DNA of 64,000 nt from Bacteroidota bacterium. Lineage in GTDB: Bacteria; Bacteroidota; Bacteroidia; B-17B0; Aurantibacillaceae. The notes below the pieces were generated by a model, which did no database searches, had not been told where the DNA came from, and worked only from the letters and a program-made list of their open reading frames with translations. Position 1 is the first letter of the stretch. Each line of letters starts with the position of its first letter. Location of the stretch: the NCBI GenBank assembly GCA_029237825.1, contig JAQZBQ010000004.1, forward strand, positions 62,001-126,000, written 5' to 3'. This document shows positions 4,713 through 14,236 of this stretch, piece by piece. The translations under genes and the position numbers were made by a program.

Positions 4713-5441
4713 CTACTGTTCTTTGGTGATTTTTTCAAGTACAACTTGCGCTACTTTTTGTTCTGCTACTTTTTTCGATTTGTGTTCAAAAACACCTTGT
4801 GGTACACCATCAATGGATAATTGTACCGCAAACACTTTGTCACGGCCATTTTTATGTTCGCTTAGTACGGTATATTCAAACTGTTTCTTTTGACGTTGCA
4901 TGAGGATCTGAAACTGAGATTTGTAATCAGTGTCATTTTGCAACAGATCATTGATATCCAGATGAATTTTAATAATGCGCATCAGAATAAACTTCCGCGT
5001 AACTTCAAACCCTTTATCCATGAATACTGCACCAATAAAGGCTTCAAACACATCGCCATATGCCGATGAACTCACCTTTTCTTTCTTAGTCAGGCGGGAA
5101 CTCAATAAAACATCAAAGCCAAATTTTTTTGAAAGCATATAAAGGTTCTGACCATTCACAATGCGGCTACGCATTTGAGTTAAGAACCCTTCGTCTTTTT
5201 TAGGAAATAATTTAAAAAGGTATTCGGCAACCACTGCGCCTAGAATGGCGTCGCCAAGAAACTCAAGCCGTTCATTACTCTGGAAGTGTTCTGTGATTTC
5301 TTTGGAGGAGCTGCTATGTCTGAATGCTTGTTTATATAATGCAATATTATCAGGATAAAACCCCAGAATGTTTTTGAGTTTTTTTTTAAACTCTTTGTCT
5401 TGTTTGGAAAGGGGTGTTAAAGCCGATAAAAGTTTTATCAA
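4713..5441 (-). CDS. rnc: Ribonuclease III
   Basis: This double-strand-specific endoribonuclease processes rRNA precursors and structured mRNAs in the cytoplasm. The family signature NERLEFLGDAIL is at residues 56-67, with the second acidic metal-binding set in GDVFEAFIGAVF at about 128-139. A double-stranded-RNA-binding domain fills residues about 165-240 (VPQGVFEHKSKKVAEQKVA). The length of 242 residues is normal, with an N-terminal extension of about 25 residues. It lies 9 bases downstream of fabF and is presumably cotranscribed in the order acpP-fabF-rnc, an arrangement known from many bacteria. Confidence 0.96.
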   Translation of the reverse strand: MIKLLSALTPLSKQDKEFKKKLKNILGFYPDNIALYKQAFRHSSSSKEITEHFQSNERLEFLGDAILGAVVAEYLFKLFPKKDEGFLTQMRSRIVNGQNLYMLSKKFGFDVLLSSRLTKKEKVSSSAYGDVFEAFIGAVFMDKGFEVTRKFILMRIIKIHLDINDLLQNDTDYKSQFQILMQRQKKQFEYTVLSEHKNGRDKVFAVQLSIDGVPQGVFEHKSKKVAEQKVAQVVLEKITKEQ

Positions 5442-5450
5442 AGCATTAAA

Positions 5451-6704
5451 TTAAGCGGTGTATTTTTTAACTACCACGGCTGCATTATGTCCGCCAAAAC
5501 CAAATGTGTTGCTAATTGCATAATTGATTGTGCGTTTTTGCGCCTTGTTAAACGTTAGGTTTAATTTAGGATCTAATTCAGGATCGGGATTGACATTGTT
5601 TATTGTGGGAGGAACAATGTCATTTTGAACAGCTAATACCGTGGCCATAGCTTCGATTGCACCGGCAGCGCCTAATAAGTGACCTGTCATTGATTTTGTG
5701 GAACTGATATTCATTTTATAAGCTTGTTCACCAAATACATTGGTAATCGCTTTTAACTCCGCAAGGTCTCCAAGTGGAGTACTCGTTCCATGTGTATTGA
5801 TGTAATCAACTAGTTCGGGACCTATGTTTGCGTCTTTCAGTGCGCGTTGCATTACTAAAGTTGCACCTAAACCTTCGGGATGTGGCGCTGTAATATGATG
5901 CGCATCAGCACTCATTCCGCCACCAATAATTTCTGCATAAATTTTAGCGCCTCTTGCAAGGGCGTGATCTAATTCTTCAAGAATCAAAGCAACACCACCT
6001 TCGCCCAAAACGAAACCATCGCGATCTACATCATAAGGGCGAGACGCCGTTTCAGGGCTTTCATTTCTGGTACTCATGGCCTGGCACGCATTAAATCCAC
6101 CAATACCACTTTCATTAATCGCTGCTTCAGAGCCGCCGGCTACAATGGCAGTGGCTTTACCTAATTTAATATAAGTAAAAGCATCAATTAAGGCTGAAGT
6201 TGAAGAAGCACAGGCGGAAACTGTGGTAAAGTTCGGTCCCCGGAATCCAAAACGCATCGAAATATGTCCTGAACAGATATCGGCTATCATTTTCGGAATG
6301 AAGAATGGGTTGAAACGCGGTGTTCCATCACCTTTGGCATAATTAAACGTTTCAGTTTGGAAAGTGTCTAAACCTCCAATTCCTGAACCCCAAATAACAC
6401 CGATTTCATTTTTGTCAATTCCTTCTGAGTCAAGTCCTGCATCAGCAACGGCTTGTACAGAAGCTGCGATACCGTAATGGGAAAATGCATCTAAACGCTG
6501 AGCTTCTTTTCTGTCAAAATAATCTTCAAGTTTAAAACCCTTCACTTCACAAGCGAAACGGGTTTTAAATTTAGATGCATCAAAACGTGTAATAGGTGCG
6601 GCACCGCTAACGCCGTTAATTAAATTTGTCCAATAATCGTTAACATTACTGCCCAAAGGTGTAACAGCACCAAGTCCCGTAACTACTACGCGCTTAAATT
6701 GCAT
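5451..6704 (-). CDS. fabF: Beta-ketoacyl-ACP synthase II
   Basis: This condensing enzyme elongates acyl-ACP with malonyl-ACP in type II fatty-acid synthesis. The Cys-His-His triad is complete: C164 in VSACASS, H305 in THGTSTPLGD and H342 in TGHLLGAAG. The length of 417 residues is typical for FabF, and the sequence is collinear throughout. It sits 30 bases downstream of acpP and 9 bases upstream of rnc, forming the common acpP-fabF-rnc operon. Confidence 0.97.
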   Translation of the reverse strand: MQFKRVVVTGLGAVTPLGSNVNDYWTNLINGVSGAAPITRFDASKFKTRFACEVKGFKLEDYFDRKEAQRLDAFSHYGIAASVQAVADAGLDSEGIDKNEIGVIWGSGIGGLDTFQTETFNYAKGDGTPRFNPFFIPKMIADICSGHISMRFGFRGPNFTTVSACASSTSALIDAFTYIKLGKATAIVAGGSEAAINESGIGGFNACQAMSTRNESPETASRPYDVDRDGFVLGEGGVALILEELDHALARGAKIYAEIIGGGMSADAHHITAPHPEGLGATLVMQRALKDANIGPELVDYINTHGTSTPLGDLAELKAITNVFGEQAYKMNISSTKSMTGHLLGAAGAIEAMATVLAVQNDIVPPTINNVNPDPELDPKLNLTFNKAQKRTINYAISNTFGFGGHNAAVVVKKYTA

Positions 6705-6734
6705 AAAGAATAATTTTTAAAAAAGGTAAAGTTC

Positions 6735-6974
6735 TTAGTTTTTTGCGTTTGCTTCGATGTAAGAAATAGCATCTCCTACAGTAGCAATTTTTTCTGCCTG
6801 ATCGTCTGGAATAGCAATATTGAATTCTTTTTCAAATTCCATAATTAATTCTACAGTATCTAAAGAATCTGCACCCAAATCATTGGTGAAACTTGCTGTT
6901 GGAGTTACTTCTTTTTCTTCTACACCTAATTTATCAACGATGATAGATTTTACTTTTGATGAAATGTCTGACAT
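6735..6974 (-). CDS. acpP: Acyl carrier protein
   Basis: This small acidic carrier (79 residues) holds growing acyl chains on 4'-phosphopantetheine. The attachment serine is S37 in [10 protein letters not shown], and the recognition helix that follows ([10 protein letters not shown]) is canonical. It is the first gene of the acpP-fabF-rnc operon. A strong bidirectional hairpin upstream isolates it from the preceding minus-strand gene. Confidence 0.97.
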
Positions 6975-7027
6975 TTGTTTTTAGTTTTAAAATTCGGGAC
7001 AAAGATAACGCTATACCACAAATATCA

Positions 7028-7088
7028 AAAAAAAATGCCCTTTAGTAATTGATTGTTATTCAAATAATTACTAAAACTGGGCATTTTT
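7028..7088 (-). terminator. Long terminator hairpin between the His-rich gene and acpP
   Basis: A long inverted repeat: AAAAATGCCC then TTTAGTAATT pair with AATTACTAAA and GGGCATTTTT, with a 3-base bulge and a loop of about 15 bases. A/T tracts on both sides allow termination in either direction. It separates two minus-strand genes. Confidence 0.75.
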
Positions 7089-7118
7089 AATCTATTAAAA
7101 GGCTTTTTTATCAGTAGC

Positions 7119-7415
7119 CTAGGCGGATTTTTTTATGATGCGGTGGTGATGGTGTCTACGCTGAATATGCCTAATATGGCTGGCATCTTTCTCATCCTTG
7201 CTAGCATATTTTTGAACTATCAAAGATGTTACGTAAGCAATTACAGCAAGTGCAATGACTCCAAAAAAGACGTAAAATCCGATAAATCCGTCTTTGGACA
7301 TTTCTGTCATCACGCCATTTACAAATTTACTTTCTGCATGCGCTACTGCGCCTGATAGGGTTAGGATTGTGGTTGTGGCAAGGGTACGTTGTACATTTTT
7401 TTCATTTGTTTCCAT
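7119..7415 (-). CDS. Small His-rich membrane protein, 98 aa
   Basis: I do not recognise a family. Residues 11-27 form a signal-like segment ending AVAHA, so cleavage after residue 27 is plausible. A second hydrophobic segment at about 44-67 (GFYVFFGVIALAVIAYVTSLIV) would anchor it. The remaining C-terminal 30 residues are strongly basic with His at 80, 83 and 88-91 (RRHHHHR), placed on the cytoplasmic side if the first segment is a cleaved signal. It is a single gene with its own terminator. The His cluster could bind metal or nucleic acid, but this is inference. Confidence 0.6.
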   Translation of the reverse strand: METNEKNVQRTLATTTILTLSGAVAHAESKFVNGVMTEMSKDGFIGFYVFFGVIALAVIAYVTSLIVQKYASKDEKDASHIRHIQRRHHHHRIIKKSA

Positions 7416-7544
7416 GATTTAAAGAATTTATGCTCTTTAATTCTAACCAAGTGGAGAATAGAACCAAAAAACGATTAAACAATTGTTTTCGGGGGTTTCT
7501 ATTTTCTTTAACGGGTATAATAGCCAATAGTTTCACGTTATTTA

Positions 7545-7576
7545 TTTGTTTTATAACAAAGAATGTTGTACATTTG
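7545..7576 (+). promoter_or_regulatory. Promoter of the rimP-nusA-infB operon
   Basis: TTTG (-33 element, 7545-7548), a 20-base spacer and TACATTTG (-7 element, 7569-7576) match the Bacteroidota primary-sigma consensus TTTG / TAnnTTTG exactly. The predicted transcript start is near 7582, leaving a leader of about 58 bases before rimP. Confidence 0.75.
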
Positions 7577-7606
7577 TCAACGGAAAATTAGAAAGATAGA
7601 ATGATG

Positions 7607-7630
7607 AGGGACGAATAAGTCCCTTTTTTA
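7607..7630 (+). promoter_or_regulatory. Attenuator-like hairpin in the rimP leader
   Basis: AGGGAC / GTCCCT (6 bp, loop GAATAA) is followed at once by six T. This is the form of an intrinsic terminator, placed between the promoter and the rimP start codon. It would either terminate part of the transcription or be read through under control, for example by NusA, the product of the second gene. The hairpin and T run are seen directly; the regulatory role is inferred by analogy with rimP leaders described in gammaproteobacteria. Confidence 0.6.
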
Positions 7631-7639
7631 TTTGGTAAA

Positions 7640-8104
7640 ATGATTAAGAAACAAACCATAATTAATTTAGTTGAAGAGCATTTAAAAGGTACGGATAAGT
7701 TCCTGGTAGATGTGAAAGTATTGGCCGGGAATAAAATTGAAGTGTATGTGGATTGTCCAACGCATATTTTGATTGCGGATTGTGTGGCTTTAAGCAGACA
7801 CATTGAAGGAAGTCTCGACAGAGAAAAAGAGGATTTTGAATTGCAGGTTTCTTCACCGGGGGCCACTGAATCGTTTAAAGTATTACCTCAGTATCAGAAA
7901 TATGTTGGCACGAAAGTGTGTGCTGTAACTAAAGATGGCACTAAACATGAAGGCTTGTTGGTAAGTGCCGGTGAAAATGAGTTTGTAATTGAGGAAACAA
8001 GAAGAGAAAAGAAAGCTCTTGGGAAAGGCAATCAAACAGTGGTAGAAAACATAACCCTAACATATAATCAAATAAAAGAAACAAAATCAGTATTACCATT
8101 TTAA
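7640..8104 (+). CDS. rimP: Ribosome maturation factor RimP
   Basis: RimP assists maturation of the 30S subunit. The protein has 154 residues with the two-domain layout of the family: an N-terminal alpha/beta domain with the characteristic LQVSSPGATESFK (about residues 71-83) and a C-terminal SH3-like barrel from about residue 86. It is the first gene of rimP-nusA-infB, with 12 bases before nusA. The order is highly conserved across bacteria and confirms the call. Expression is likely governed by the upstream promoter and terminator-like hairpin. Confidence 0.93.
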   Translation: MIKKQTIINLVEEHLKGTDKFLVDVKVLAGNKIEVYVDCPTHILIADCVALSRHIEGSLDREKEDFELQVSSPGATESFKVLPQYQKYVGTKVCAVTKDGTKHEGLLVSAGENEFVIEETRREKKALGKGNQTVVENITLTYNQIKETKSVLPF

Positions 8105-8116
8105 AAAATCAAAACA

Positions 8117-9379
8117 ATGGAAAGTGTAAATTTAATTGAATCATTCTCGTTATTTAAAGAAGACAAGAACATTGATCGCGCAACGTTAATGAGCATCATC
8201 GAAGATGTTTTCCGTACCATGTTAATTAAAAAATACGGGTCGGATAAAAACTTTGATATCATCGTAAACCCTGATAAAGGGGATATTGAAATTTATAAGA
8301 ACAGAACCATTGTTGACGATGAGTTTGCTGAAGATTCTTTTGATTACGATCCGAATAAACATATCAGTTTATCTGAAGCACATAAAATTGAACCTGATTT
8401 TGAAATTGGTGAAGAGGTTACTGAACTTGTAAAGTTGGATGAAATTGGGCGCAGAAATGTGCTATCTGTTCGTCAAAACCTGGTTCAGAAAATTCTTGAA
8501 CTGGAAAAAACAGGTATTTATAATAAATACAAGGAACGAGTAGGCGATATCATTAACGCTGAAGTATACCAGGTATGGAAGAAAGAGATCATGTTACTTG
8601 ATGATGAAGGCAATGAATTATTGCTTCCTAAAACAGAGCAAATTCCATCTGATTTTTTCAAAAAAGGAGATTCAGTAAAAGCGGTTGTGCATAAGGTTGA
8701 ATTAAAAAATGGTACCCCATCGGTAATCATGTCACGTACGGCACCGTCTTTCCTTGAGCGTTTATTCGAGATGGAAGTTCCTGAAGTGTTTGATGGATTA
8801 ATTACAATTAAAAAAATAGTTCGTGAACCAGGAGAAAGGGCAAAAGTTGCCGTTGAATCTTATGATGACCGTATTGATCCGGTTGGAGCTTGTGTGGGCA
8901 TGAAAGGTTCCCGTATTCATGGAATTGTGCGTGAATTAAAAAATGAGAATATTGACGTGATCAACTACACATCTAACGCTCAGTTATTAATTCAGCGTTC
9001 CCTGAGCCCGGCAAAAGTTACTTCAGTAAAATTGAATGAAGACACTAAACGTGCAGAGGTTTTCCTTAAGCCAGACCAGATTTCTTTGGCAATTGGAAAA
9101 GGTGGGTTTAATATCAAGCTTGCTGGTAAATTAACCGGATATGAGATTGATGTGTTCCGTGATAATGAAGATGCAGCGGTTGATATTGAAGACGTTGACT
9201 TGGTAGAATTCTCTGATGAAATTGATGAATCAGTAATCAGTGCTTTACAATCCATTGGTTGCGATACAGCTAAATCTGTATTGGAACTGGATGTTGCTGA
9301 TTTAGTTCGCAGGACCGGTTTAAGTGAAGATGTAATTGAGGATGTAAAACAGGTGTTACAATCAGAGTTCGAAGATTAA
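8117..9379 (+). CDS. nusA: Transcription termination/antitermination protein NusA
   Basis: NusA binds RNA polymerase and modulates pausing, termination and antitermination. The N-terminal polymerase-binding domain covers about residues 1-130. The S1 domain follows at about 135-205, then two KH domains at about 230-345 (GMKGSRIHGIVREL and AIGKGGFNIKLAGKL). The C-terminus is acidic, with one helix-hairpin-helix-like segment. The length of 420 residues suits family members that lack the extra acidic repeats of E. coli NusA (495). It lies between rimP and infB, in the expected order. Confidence 0.96.
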   Translation: MESVNLIESFSLFKEDKNIDRATLMSIIEDVFRTMLIKKYGSDKNFDIIVNPDKGDIEIYKNRTIVDDEFAEDSFDYDPNKHISLSEAHKIEPDFEIGEEVTELVKLDEIGRRNVLSVRQNLVQKILELEKTGIYNKYKERVGDIINAEVYQVWKKEIMLLDDEGNELLLPKTEQIPSDFFKKGDSVKAVVHKVELKNGTPSVIMSRTAPSFLERLFEMEVPEVFDGLITIKKIVREPGERAKVAVESYDDRIDPVGACVGMKGSRIHGIVRELKNENIDVINYTSNAQLLIQRSLSPAKVTSVKLNEDTKRAEVFLKPDQISLAIGKGGFNIKLAGKLTGYEIDVFRDNEDAAVDIEDVDLVEFSDEIDESVISALQSIGCDTAKSVLELDVADLVRRTGLSEDVIEDVKQVLQSEFED

Positions 9380-9454
9380 AAAGAATAAGAATAGGAGTTA
9401 GCTTTCTCTGTTTAAAAAAGTGTTTTGATTACATAAAAAGACGAGGAAATATAT

Positions 9455-12289
9455 ATGTCAGAGGCAAAAACAATGCGATTAAGTAAAGTAGCAAAAGAAT
9501 TCAATTTATCTTTGGGTAAAATCACTGAATTTCTTGCTGCAAAAGGTCGCCCGGTAGAAAATAATCCCAACGCGAAAATTGGTGACGAAGAATATGCTTT
9601 ATTATCAAAGGAATTCTCGGGGGATAAATCTGCTAAAGAAGAAGCTCAACATGTTGGACAAAATCTTAATAAATTAAAGAGGGAGTCTATTATTGTTGAA
9701 GATATTAAAGCGATTAAAGCGAAAGAACAGGAAGATTTGCGCCTGAAAGAAGCTGCCGCCGCAAAAGTGGCTGCTGAAAAGAAAAAGGCTGATGAGGCAA
9801 AAGCCTTAGCTGAAAAAGAAGCTGCAAAGTCACAAGTTCCTGTTGAAGAAGTTTCTGAAAGCCCTTCTGTATTGTCTGGCCCAAAAGTGTTAGGTAAGGT
9901 GGATTTAAGCACTTTAAATCAAAAAACAAAACCGGATAAAAAATCCAAAAAGGAAAAAGAGGAAGAAAAAGCATCGGAAGAAGCCGAAGCAAAATCTGCC
10001 AAAGGCAAAAAGAAAAAAGAAGCAGAGGTTGAAGTTGAGAAGGTAGAGCCTGTAACTCCAGCGGTTGAGGAGGTGCCTGAAAAACACGAAGAACAAAAAG
10101 AAGTTTTCCATGAGACGGTTTACCAAAAACTGGATGGCCCAAAAATCATGGGTAAAATTGAATTACCTGTAGCAAAAGAGGTTAAAAAAGCAGCTCCTGG
10201 TACCGGTGCAGGTTCGTTAGCTGATAAGAAAAAGCGTAAGCGCATCCGCAAAGGCGGAATGAGCCAGGAGGAAATTAAAAAAGTTGGTACGGAGCAGGCT
10301 CAGATAGCGCGTGACCGTGCGAAAGAAAAATATGGCGATCCTAGAGCAAAGAAACCGGCATCGAGGGAAGCAAGACCTGCTTTAACGGATGTTGAAATTC
10401 AGGCACAAATCAAAGAAACCCTTGCACGTTTAAGCAACAAAGGGTCAAAATCCAAAACATCCAAATACCGTCGTGATAAGCGTGAAGATGTGAGGGATAA
10501 AATGGCGGAAGAGCAGGAACAATCTGATCTGGAGAAAAAAACATTGAAAGTAACGGAATTCGTTTCAGCTAATCAGTTAGCGCAAATGATGAACGTTTCT
10601 GTTACTCAGATTATTTCTACTTGTATGAGTTTAGGTTTATTTGTTTCTATCAATCAACGTTTGGATGCTGAAACTCTTGCAATAGTAGCCGAAGAGTTTG
10701 GTTATAAAACAGAATTCGTAAGTGTTGAGGTACAGGAAGCGATTGAAGAACAGGAGGCAGAAGATCCGCAAGACCTGGTGGAACGTCCTCCAATTGTGAC
10801 GATTATGGGTCACGTTGATCATGGTAAAACATCGTTACTGGATTACATTCGTAAATCAAATGTTATTGCCGGTGAGGCTGGCGGAATTACCCAGCATATT
10901 GGAAGTTATAATGTGAAACTGGAAAGTGGAAAATCAATTACCTTCCTCGATACACCAGGTCACGAGGCATTTACTGCGATGCGTGCGCGTGGTGCGAAAG
11001 TTACCGACGTTGTAATTATTGTGGTTGCGGCAGACGATAGCGTGATGCCTCAAACCAAAGAGGCTATCAATCACGCACAGGCAGCAGGTTCACCAATGAT
11101 AATTGCAATCAATAAGATTGATAAGCCAGGTGCAAATCCGGATAAAATACGTGAGGCATTGGCCGCAATGAATATCCTTGTTGAGGAGTGGGGTGGAAAG
11201 GTTCAATGCCAGGAAATATCAGCGAAAATGGGTAAGAACATTGATTTGTTACTCGAAAAAGTTGTACTGGAAGCAGATATTTTAGAGTTAAAAGCTAACC
11301 CAAAAACAAAAGCATCAGGAACCGTAATTGAAGCGAAATTAGATAAGGGCCGTGGTCACGTCGTAGATATCATTGTTCAGAAAGGAACAATGCGTGTTGG
11401 AGACATTTTAGTAGCCGGCTGTTATAGTGGAAGGGTAAAAGCGATGACAAATGAGCATGGCGTGAATGTGAAAGAGGCGGGACCTTCAATGCCGGTGCAG
11501 TTACTGGGCTTAAATGGTGCGCCAACAGCTGGTGATAAATTTAACGTGATGAGTGATGAACGTGAAGCTCGTGAACTTGCTAACAAGAGGTTACAGCTAC
11601 AACGTGAACAAGGTATCCGAACTCAAAAACATATTACGCTTGATGAAATTGGAAGGCGTTTGGCTATTGGTGATTTCAAGGAGTTGAATATCATTGTAAA
11701 AGGTGATGTGGATGGTTCAATTGAAGCCTTGTCTGATTCCTTATTAAAATTGTCAACTGAAAAAGTTCAGGTAAATATTATACATAAATCCGTAGGTGCT
11801 ATTAGCGAAACGGATGTTATGTTAGCAAGTGCCTCTAATGCGATTATTGTAGGTTTCCAGGTTCGCCCATCTGTTCCGGCCCGTAAGCTAGCCGAAACAG
11901 AAGAAATAGACATCCGCTTGTATTCTATTATTTACGATGCGATCAATGAGGTGAAAGCGGCTATGGAGGGTATGTTAGCGCCGGAATTTGAAGAAAAAAT
12001 CGTATGTAACATCGTGGTTCGTGAAGTATTTAACATTACTAAAGTTGGTACCATTGCGGGTGCGTATGTGTTGGATGGGAAAGTTACACGTAACACAAAA
12101 GTTCGCGTGATCCGTGACGGAATTGTAATTCATACCGGTTCTTTAGGATCCTTGAAGCGCTTCAAAGATGATGTGAAAGAAGTGACCGCGAATTATGAAT
12201 GTGGTTTAAACATCGAAGGCTTTAATGATATCAAAGTTGATGATATCATTGAAGGATACGATATGGTTGAGGTGAAAGCGAAACTTTAA
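9455..12289 (+). CDS. infB: Translation initiation factor IF-2
   Basis: This GTPase brings initiator tRNA to the 30S subunit and promotes subunit joining. An IF2N-type domain begins at residue 5. It is followed by a very long, low-complexity Lys/Glu/Ala linker to about residue 365, containing two copies of a GPKxxGKxxL motif and the RKRIRKGG basic patch. A second IF2N domain lies at about 365-425. The G domain starts near 445 with G1 GHVDHGKT at 452-459, then DTPGHE and NKID. Domains II to IV complete the protein. At 944 residues it is a long IF-2, mainly because of the linker, as is common in Bacteroidota. Confidence 0.97.
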
Positions 12290-12384
12290 GAGGGCAGAAA
12301 TTTTGTCTTGTGGGTTTTTTAGAATAAATTCGCGACGAAAAATGGATGAGCTTGTTTGGCTTGAATGTTATGCAAAACGCATCA

Positions 12385-12415
12385 TTGGGAGTGTTTGAAT
12401 TAAAATGTTCTTTTG
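12385..12415 (+). promoter_or_regulatory. Candidate promoter of tRNA-Ala
   Basis: TTG (12385-12387), a 20-base spacer and TTCTTTTG (12408-12415, 7 of 8 to TAnnTTTG) would start transcription at or next to the tRNA 5' end. Readthrough from infB is the alternative. Confidence 0.35.
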
Positions 12416-12420
12416 AAATT

Positions 12421-12497
12421 GGGGGATTAGCTCATTTGGCTAGAGCGCTTCGCTGGCAGTGAAGAGGCGACCGGTTCGAATCCGGTATTCTCCACCA
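12421..12497 (+). tRNA. tRNA-Ala (anticodon GGC)
   Basis: The full cloverleaf is visible. The acceptor GGGGGAT pairs with ATTCTCC (two G-U pairs), followed by discriminator A and an encoded CCA. The D arm is GCTC/GAGC. The anticodon arm CTTCG/TGAAG carries loop CTGGCAG, giving anticodon GGC, which reads GCC and GCU. The T arm is ACCGG/CCGGT with loop TTCGAAT. It is flanked by infB and a strong terminator. Confidence 0.97.
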
Positions 12498-12526
12498 AAA
12501 GTCCCGATTATATCGGGACTTTTTTC
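12498..12526 (+). terminator. Rho-independent terminator of the tRNA
   Basis: AGTCCCGA / TCGGGACT (8 bp) with a 5-base AT loop is preceded by A and followed by a T run. It directly follows the tRNA CCA. Confidence 0.9.
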
Positions 12527-12728
12527 TTTAATTTATTTCGTTACACCCCATATATTCTTACTGAGGAGACATTCTTCGGACAGACGCCTGGTAAAAGATA
12601 TGAGTTGGCTATAATCCAAAAGGATTTAATAAACTGGTCCATTGTAATTATTTAATTTCTTCATATTCTTTGCTAATTTCAAAAGGATGTAATAGCATAG
12701 TAAAGAAAATTATGTAAGTTAGATTAGT

Positions 12729-13325
12729 ATGGCATCCGCTTTAAGAATAATCGCAATCATTCTCCATTTATTTTTTATCTGTTCCGCAAATGCGCAATCA
12801 AAATCATTTGTTTTCAAAGCCCTCGGTTTAAAAGTTGGAAACCTTGAAGCCCGCCACAGTTCTAAAAACGGCTACGATATTTACATGAGCCACAGCGTCA
12901 TCAGTTTTGTAACGATAGATGCAGAAATAAAAACCGAATCTATTTATCAAAACGGTATGCTGATAAAATCTGTGGTTACAAGTACCATCAATGGAAAGCC
13001 GTATTTATCTCAAACTATTTGGAAAAAGAATCACTACTGGATAGAATGCCACGCCCGCAATTATAATTACACCGATACAACCTTAACACATCCTATCAAA
13101 TGGTCGGCAAGTAAGCTGTATTTCGATGTTCCTCCTCCCGGCGCGTCTGTGTATGCCGAAAGTTACGGCGTGATGGGCGTATTGGAGGAAGTTGAAAAGA
13201 ATGCCCTGCAAATGACCACCCCGGAAAGCCGCCAGATATACTATTACGATGAAGGCTTCATACGCCTGAGGAAAATTGAAGTTGTCAATAAAATTAAAAA
13301 CTTCGATATGATTCCAATCGATTAG
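12729..13325 (+). CDS. DUF6134-like exported protein, 198 aa
   Basis: The signal peptide ends at about residue 23 (FFICSANAQ). The mature protein shows the pattern I associate with DUF6134: a short strand pair (FKALGLKVGNLEARHS), the segment AEIKTESIYQNGMLIKSVVTS, and further strands with conserved aromatic residues. That suggests a single beta-rich domain of the kind found in Bacteroidota periplasmic proteins. The family assignment is from memory and function is not known. It stands alone, about 230 bases after the tRNA terminator and 160 bases before uppS; no clear promoter was found upstream. Confidence 0.7.
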   Translation: MASALRIIAIILHLFFICSANAQSKSFVFKALGLKVGNLEARHSSKNGYDIYMSHSVISFVTIDAEIKTESIYQNGMLIKSVVTSTINGKPYLSQTIWKKNHYWIECHARNYNYTDTTLTHPIKWSASKLYFDVPPPGASVYAESYGVMGVLEEVEKNALQMTTPESRQIYYYDEGFIRLRKIEVVNKIKNFDMIPID

Positions 13326-13486
13326 CTTTTAACTGCATCCTATTGGAATTCGGAATTTCTTTAAGTGAGATCGGGCCTCTTTCGGTCACACGTTTCGTAT
13401 TAAAATAATTAACACCTTTTATGACTAAAACAGGCTATTTGTTGCGCTATTTAGTGTAAAAGTGTAAATTCGTGCTTCTTTAAAGG

Positions 13487-14236
13487 ATGAGTCACAAAAA
13501 CAGTATAGACTTGCAAAAAGTTCCACAACACATTGCCATCATCATGGATGGAAATGGTCGTTGGGCAAAACAGCAAGGCGAAAACCGTATTTATGGCCAC
13601 TATGAGGGAGTGAATTCAGTGCGCGATGTAGTAGAAGGCGCAGGTGAGATCGGAGTGAAATACCTTACCTTATATGCCTTCAGTACCGAAAACTGGAATC
13701 GCCCAAAGGAAGAAGTCGATGCTTTAATGGAACTTCTTGTTTCTACTATCAGTGCCGAAACGCCCCAACTAAATAAAAAGAATGTACGCCTTCAGGCTAT
13801 CGGAAATCTCGATAGCTTACCTTCTACATGTTTAGAGGAGTTGAATGAGTCAATTAATCTCACCTCAAAAAATACTGGCATCACGGTGGTGTTGGCTTTG
13901 AGCTATTCGTCTAAATGGGAACTGGTAAATGCGATGAAAAAAATTGCCGGAGAATTATCCGCGGGAAATTTAGAACCGGCGGATATTACCGAACAAACTA
14001 TAGAAAAATACTTATGTACAAAAGATATTCCAGACCCTGAATTGATGATTCGTACAAGCGGCGAACACCGGATCAGTAATTTTTTATTATGGCAATTGGC
14101 TTACGCCGAGTTTTATTTTACAGATAAGCTATGGCCGGCTTTTCGTAAGGAAGATTTGTTTGAAGCAATTTTGAATTTTCAAAACCGTGAGCGTCGTTTC
14201 GGTAAAACCAGCGAACAATTAACTCAAGCAAAATAA
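13487..14236 (+). CDS. uppS: Isoprenyl (undecaprenyl) diphosphate synthase
   Basis: This cis-prenyltransferase condenses isopentenyl diphosphate onto farnesyl diphosphate to make the C55 carrier lipid for peptidoglycan and other envelope polymers. The catalytic Asp is D21 in IIMDGNGRWAKQ. The C-terminal signature RTSGEHRISNFLLWQLAYAEF is shortened here to its recognisable core RTSGE...SNFLLWQ. The length of 249 residues is typical. Its stop codon overlaps the bamA start (TAATG), so the two are translationally coupled. A possible promoter, TTTG with a 23-base spacer and TAAATTCG (13438-13472), lies just upstream. Confidence 0.95.
   Translation: MSHKNSIDLQKVPQHIAIIMDGNGRWAKQQGENRIYGHYEGVNSVRDVVEGAGEIGVKYLTLYAFSTENWNRPKEEVDALMELLVSTISAETPQLNKKNVRLQAIGNLDSLPSTCLEELNESINLTSKNTGITVVLALSYSSKWELVNAMKKIAGELSAGNLEPADITEQTIEKYLCTKDIPDPELMIRTSGEHRISNFLLWQLAYAEFYFTDKLWPAFRKEDLFEAILNFQNRERRFGKTSEQLTQAK

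Follow-up and report, generated by a model that had tools for sequence, protein, structure and literature searches.

In 2010 Naville and Gautheret reported, from Firmicutes and Gammaproteobacteria, an element named the rimP-leader, which they called the most ubiquitous attenuator and for which they proposed NusA as the regulator (PMC2965389). In Escherichia coli, NusA is reported to repress the rimP-nusA-infB operon (PMC6511841, PMC2965389). An RNA-seq study of Streptococcus agalactiae in 2015 described short and long RNAs from a single transcription start site before rimP, with termination at 31 nucleotides (nt), and proposed NusA feedback (PMC4448216). From Flavobacterium psychrophilum and other Flavobacteriaceae, a 2021 account notes a conserved structured 5' element upstream of rimP without an Rfam hit, and gives the promoter consensus TAnnTTTG (PMC9723704). 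Here we analyze the leader of the rimP-nusA-infB operon in a 64,000-nt stretch of DNA (the window) from a Bacteroidota bacterium of the Aurantibacillaceae (assembly GCA_029237825.1, contig JAQZBQ010000004.1, positions 62,001 to 126,000 of the forward strand). The best reading of this leader, to which we assign a probability of roughly 0.72, is a very short intrinsic-terminator attenuator through which NusA would exert negative feedback on its own operon.

All features of the leader and operon lie on the forward strand. A Bacteroidota sigma-A type promoter, TTTG-N20-TACATTTG, occupies 7545..7576 (TTTG 7545-7548, TACATTTG 7569-7576), and, judging by the promoter type, transcription would start about 4-7 nt past the box, at 7580..7583. 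The A-rich start of the transcript (7584..7605) has no C-run able to pair with the G-rich 5' arm of the hairpin that follows at 7606..7625, GAGGGAC-gaataa-GTCCCTT, which is predicted to be a terminator from its sequence, its fold and its conservation in relatives. Its 5' arm (G)AGGGAC spans 7606/7607-7612, the loop GAATAA 7613-7618 and the 3' arm GTCCC 7619-7623, and the U-tract TTTTTTATTT comes next at 7624..7633 (T-run 7624-7629, A 7630, TTT 7631-7633); a terminated RNA would be expected to end within this tract, at a length of about 45-50 nt. The original prediction had placed such a promoter, with a hairpin about 30 bases on, before the rimP ATG, and this arrangement is present: the distance from the -7 box to the hairpin start is 29 nt, and the scored stem lies 14 nt ahead of the ATG. 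The arms AGGGAC/GTCCCT were also correctly read, but the six T said to follow them include the last T of GTCCCT, so that five more come after it. The identity of the operon stands as well, all three genes scoring over their NCBIfam cut-offs: rimP at 7640..8104 (NF002531, 156.1 bits, cut-off 123), nusA, the proposed source of the feedback, at 8117..9379 (TIGR01953, 383.3 bits, cut-off 253.4), and infB, encoding IF-2, at 9455..12289 (TIGR00487, 790.9 bits, cut-off 424.4). The segment 7582-7660 folds better than all 200 of its 200 dinucleotide shuffles (z -3.25). A scan of 5000-14000 for terminator patterns returned 5 sites against a shuffle mean of 6.9, which is no excess over chance, and because this 9-kb count is at shuffle level a terminator-like pattern by itself proves little. 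The decisive support for the predicted hairpin is its conservation in relatives.

To score that conservation, a single fixed hairpin and T-tract score was applied to the 130 nt before each start, with a threshold of at least 22 and dinucleotide shuffles as the control. Set 1 comprised class-mates of the window plus 80 named contigs, their class taken from the titles (L049 is titled Chlorobiota); its 109 leaders reduced to 99 distinct ones, with L030 left out as incomplete. A held-out set was made of 100 of 263 Bacteroidia genomes with RimP, the best-scoring ones listed from handle G060 upward, 95 of whose leaders differ from set 1 and 93 are also mutually distinct. A third set held 40 leaders out of 147 phylum genomes with RimP, picked to span 23 families outside the class, with starts placed by rule. 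The threshold was reached by 97/99 distinct leaders of set 1 (20/495 shuffles), 95/95 held-out leaders (15/475 shuffles) and 37/40 leaders of the other Bacteroidota classes (11/200 shuffles), the shuffle rate being 3-6% across the three sets. Below it fell L015, which has the same stem and scores 20.5, and L061 in set 1, and L251, L258 and L261 in the other classes. At two control genes the same scorer passed 2/29 sequences before groES and 6/25 before rplM (usable in 29/30 cases for groES and 25/30 for rplM). A lack of the hairpin in related genomes had been named as a finding that would speak against the original prediction; the hairpin is conserved in them.

The sequence of the hairpin varies while its form is kept. 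Leaders of the window's genus mostly carry GGGAC/GTCCC followed by TTTTTTATTT; elsewhere the commonest stem is GGGGAC/GTCCCC, found in 84/192 leaders, and GGG in the 5' arm with CC in the 3' arm is seen in 186/192, including some GGGGC/GCCCC stems. The other classes have unrelated arms, e.g., GTGGG/CCCAC or GCCCG/CGGGC. The 192 leaders hold 51 distinct arm pairs, but since the finder itself demands pairing, this count reflects sequence turnover at a kept position and is no fresh test of pairing. In a sequence-based alignment (A2) of 28 leaders, 16 of them from the window's genus, the share of paired cells is 91.5% in register and falls to 31-67% once the arms are slid. Of its eight pairs, three are invariant, two show a one-sided change and three have changed on both sides. 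A covariation search had been proposed as a check in the original prediction; here the covariation score exceeds 500/500 shuffles, and both-sided changes exceed all but 14; the number of pair types is not above the shuffles, 492/500 of which are equally high. A MAFFT alignment of 91 held-out stems (A4) had many rows out of register and was excluded from the pair counts. Past the C-run, positions 3-6 are each occupied by T in 163-185 of the 191 leaders, and position 7 is A or G in 89/191. Terminators of the window's own genome also have interrupted T-tracts, and for that reason A or G at position 7 is simply consistent with the termination reading.

The position of the hairpin appears to be set by the promoter. 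A TAnnTTTG box lies upstream of it in 183/192 distinct leaders (taking the nearest box, with no shuffle control, and counting the leaders of set 1 and the held-out set), and in these 183 the distance from the box end to the end of the 3' arm has a median of 48 nt (5-95%, 39-54), with a median of 19 nt from the inferred start to the hairpin. The distance from the 3' arm to the ATG ranges from 4 to 103 nt in rimP leaders. Tight spacing to the box combined with loose spacing to the ATG indicates that the hairpin is tied to the start site and not to the start codon. No competing structure was evident ahead of it: YCCC precedes the stem in 0/183 leaders, and a 5-nt pairing with the arm core is possible in 12/183. 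A riboswitch, T-box or other antiterminator switch was accordingly rejected, there being no alternative pairing partner or sensor domain before the terminator, and Rfam returned nothing in the leader at gathering score, with only ten sub-threshold matches at E<=10 in 7500-7700, each with E of 1.8 or more. A leader-peptide attenuator was likewise rejected because no conserved short open reading frame (ORF) is evident in the leader; only 50/183 leaders have an ATG ORF whose start precedes the end of the hairpin, and the ATGATGAGGGACGAATAA leader ORF of the window is not kept in L003, L005, L015 and L016 of the same genus.

Genomes with no RimP over the cut-off provide a natural test of which operon product could act on the leader. 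Among 23 genomes without a RimP match (20 among those listed of 32, plus three others), nusA was found in 15, of which 13 were usable (L336-L338, L340-L349), L339 and L350 having too little upstream sequence. These 13 represent five Bacteroidia families (f16, five genomes; f45, four; f62, two; f25 and f26, one each), and 12 are more than 90% complete. RimP_N (PF02576) was over the cut-off in 0/13, with weak matches in five (best E 0.028), and no rimP stands ahead of nusA in these genomes where the upstream DNA could be read. A hairpin scoring at least 22 with a promoter box is present before nusA in 9/13 (L336, L338, L341, L343-L348), and a weaker hairpin with a box in two more (L340, L342). 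The five f16 genomes have 49-50 nt between box and arm, as in rimP leaders, and the f25 genome has 52 nt; the hairpin lies up to 137 nt from the nusA start. On a NusA tree that leaves out the long-branch row L349, four changes are needed to explain RimP absence, three of them forced by well-supported branches. By this comparison the leader would seem mostly to outlive rimP, and where it is kept before nusA without RimP, RimP is unlikely to be the sensor.

Taken together, these observations suggest the following scheme. RNA polymerase would start about 5 nt past the -7 box, and the hairpin would fold and the U-tract be reached within about 45-50 nt. Some polymerases would then stop and release a short RNA, and others would read into rimP-nusA-infB. 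Because no competing antiterminator is seen, the simplest view is that a factor acting at the paused polymerase would set the read-through fraction. NusA stimulates intrinsic termination and would be the likeliest such factor, high NusA giving more termination and hence less operon mRNA. We infer termination itself, its partial nature and the role of NusA as its setter from sequence. Of the two proposals in the original prediction, attenuation at this locus is strongly supported by the comparison, and NusA feedback is favored over RimP feedback, as the leader mostly stays before nusA in genomes without RimP over the cut-off.

Several results weigh against this scheme. The scorer also passes 6/25 sequences before rplM, which is above the shuffles. 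A covariance model (R1) trained on the 28 A2 leaders misses 20/100 held-out leaders, the other 80 being found on the sense strand. Stem letters alone do not prove that a special signal is present, being shared with ordinary 3' terminators. Family f4 and, within family f12, genus g21 (L172, L173, L177, L180, L191-L193, L200) keep the stem but have a broken U-tract (TTCATT or similar), a combination that a plain terminator would not favor. Two of the 13 genomes without RimP, L337 and L349 (a 0.5-Mb genome), have no hairpin before nusA, and the box-to-arm distance, 48 nt at the median in rimP leaders, is 72-85 nt in three f45 genomes and 25-30 nt in two f62 genomes. The sensor could also be IF-2, or some other product of the operon, in NusA's place.

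Among other explanations, a constitutive attenuator would lower expression by a fixed fraction, sensing nothing or the general state of RNA polymerase. The terminator alone is conserved, as in such an element it would be, and neither a sensor domain nor an antiterminator nor a conserved ORF is evident in the leader. A weaker promoter would presumably do equally well, however, whereas phylum-wide retention alongside sequence turnover suggests that termination is the regulated step, and NusA control has been published or proposed in other phyla (PMC2965389, PMC4448216, PMC6511841). We consider constitutive attenuation unlikely. If the hairpin instead acted on translation or mRNA stability, as a 5' stem or a block to initiation, its position 14 nt from the ATG in the window and the lineages in which the stem is retained but the U-tract is poor would be accounted for. 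The conserved U-tract of most leaders would not, nor would a start-codon distance that varies up to 103 nt before rimP and 137 nt before nusA while the promoter-box distance in rimP leaders stays tight, and we judge an action on translation or stability very unlikely.

RimP itself might regulate the attenuator by binding the leader: rimP is first in the rimP-bearing operons seen, and feedback by RimP is named as possible in the description of the rimP-leader (PMC2965389). Retention of the leader before nusA in 11/13 genomes without RimP over the cut-off, two of them weakly, speaks against this, as do arms that are wholly different between classes and so offer no fixed binding sequence; RimP control is in our estimation very unlikely. 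We find it barely credible that the hairpin belongs to an upstream gene as its 3' terminator, or is a chance palindrome. Similar stems do end genes in Bacteroidia, local pattern counts are at the chance level, and at 31/99 loci the closest ORF upstream runs in the same direction. That ORF is divergent from rimP in the window and at 66/99 loci (not found at 2/99), so the hairpin is not generally another gene's terminator, and both the promoter box upstream of the hairpin and conservation beyond chance stand against this origin. With NusA-responsive attenuation as the preferred reading, we give even odds to a broader proposal, that the nusA operon of Bacteroidota is under start-proximal terminator feedback throughout the phylum. 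Such feedback would be tied to nusA and not to rimP, having persisted where rimP was lost, on three or four occasions, and would rest on a hairpin and U-tract near the promoter and not on a bound sequence, forming a self-calibrating circuit in which NusA gauges its own termination activity.

Matches to R1 away from rimP were also considered. In the window's own genome the rimP leader, itself a training row of R1, ranks top at 49.7 bits and the next match scores 28.1. A regulon sharing the motif was rejected, since none of the 16 other R1 matches listed in this genome has a promoter box in the 60 nt ahead of it; seven of them lie within 30 nt past the end of a same-strand ORF. Of 11 hand-picked strong R1 matches off rimP, eight overlap a same-strand ORF end or lie within 20 nt past it, and L353, L356 and L360 are without assigned context; a twelfth strong match, L362, is the rimP leader of genome G190. 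The arm letters were rejected as a NusA signature, as the same stems stand at ordinary gene ends and other classes have other letters. In other Bacteroidia, GGG(G)AC/GTCCC(C) stems are found as 3' gene-end terminators between convergent ORFs (L351, L352, L354, L357). The rplM leaders of some Bacteroidia (L312, L317) carry a CCCCTT/AAGGGG hairpin with a T-tract, possibly another attenuator.

Elsewhere in the window, the divergent ORF upstream of the leader, at 7119-7415 on the reverse strand, would encode 98 amino acids; its product, which has a histidine-rich end, looks by eye like a secreted or membrane-bound protein, and an NCBIfam search with it gave no match. A long inverted repeat at 7031-7088, AAAAATGCCC...GGGCATTTTT, is probably the terminator of this ORF. 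At 12421-12523, past infB, there is a tRNA gene and then a terminator whose arms are inverse (GTCCCGAT/ATCGGGAC).

The original prediction had likened the leader to the Rfam rimP leader of gammaproteobacteria. Rfam RF01770 concerns the same gene but is a 102-position model that the present leader does not match: in the window's own genome it gives 0 matches over its 47-bit cut-off, none of its 23 weak ones (E<=1) falls at the leader, and it is not among the ten sub-threshold matches in 7500-7700. The resemblance is instead to the shorter, general rimP-leader, which is reported from Firmicutes too (PMC2965389), so that the known element is not confined to gammaproteobacteria. As described there, the general form is a short G-rich/C-rich terminator hairpin with a T-stretch before rimP-nusA-infB, without an antiterminator and with NusA proposed, and the leader of the window shares these traits; its 14 nt to the gene fall within the reported range of 4-130 nt. 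The published stem is GGGc(...)gCCC, and GGGAC/GTCCC here usually has an extra A-U pair. The string "bacteroid" is absent from the main text of that paper, and no description of the leader across Bacteroidota, or of its persistence without rimP, was found in the open-licence PubMed Central literature. The element of F. psychrophilum belongs to the same gene and phylum and is likely identical with the hairpin described here; the passage reporting it carries no sequence, structure or mechanism (PMC9723704). The original prediction envisaged an RNA much shorter than that of the gammaproteobacterial leader, but terminated RNAs of very small size have been seen before: the S. agalactiae leader, with the same gene order and a short terminated leader, ends at 31 nt against the expected 45-50 nt here, in another phylum and on the basis of RNA-seq where ours is sequence (PMC4448216).

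If the proposed feedback is real, the leader would provide Bacteroidota with a native readout of NusA activity, and it is small enough for in vitro study on a single template. The kind of element is already known, and what is new and useful is the comparative evidence, by which a proposed attenuator that is among the most widespread in bacteria now spans a whole phylum. The loss of rimP supplies a natural test as well, and it points to NusA, or another product of the operon, rather than RimP as the sensor.
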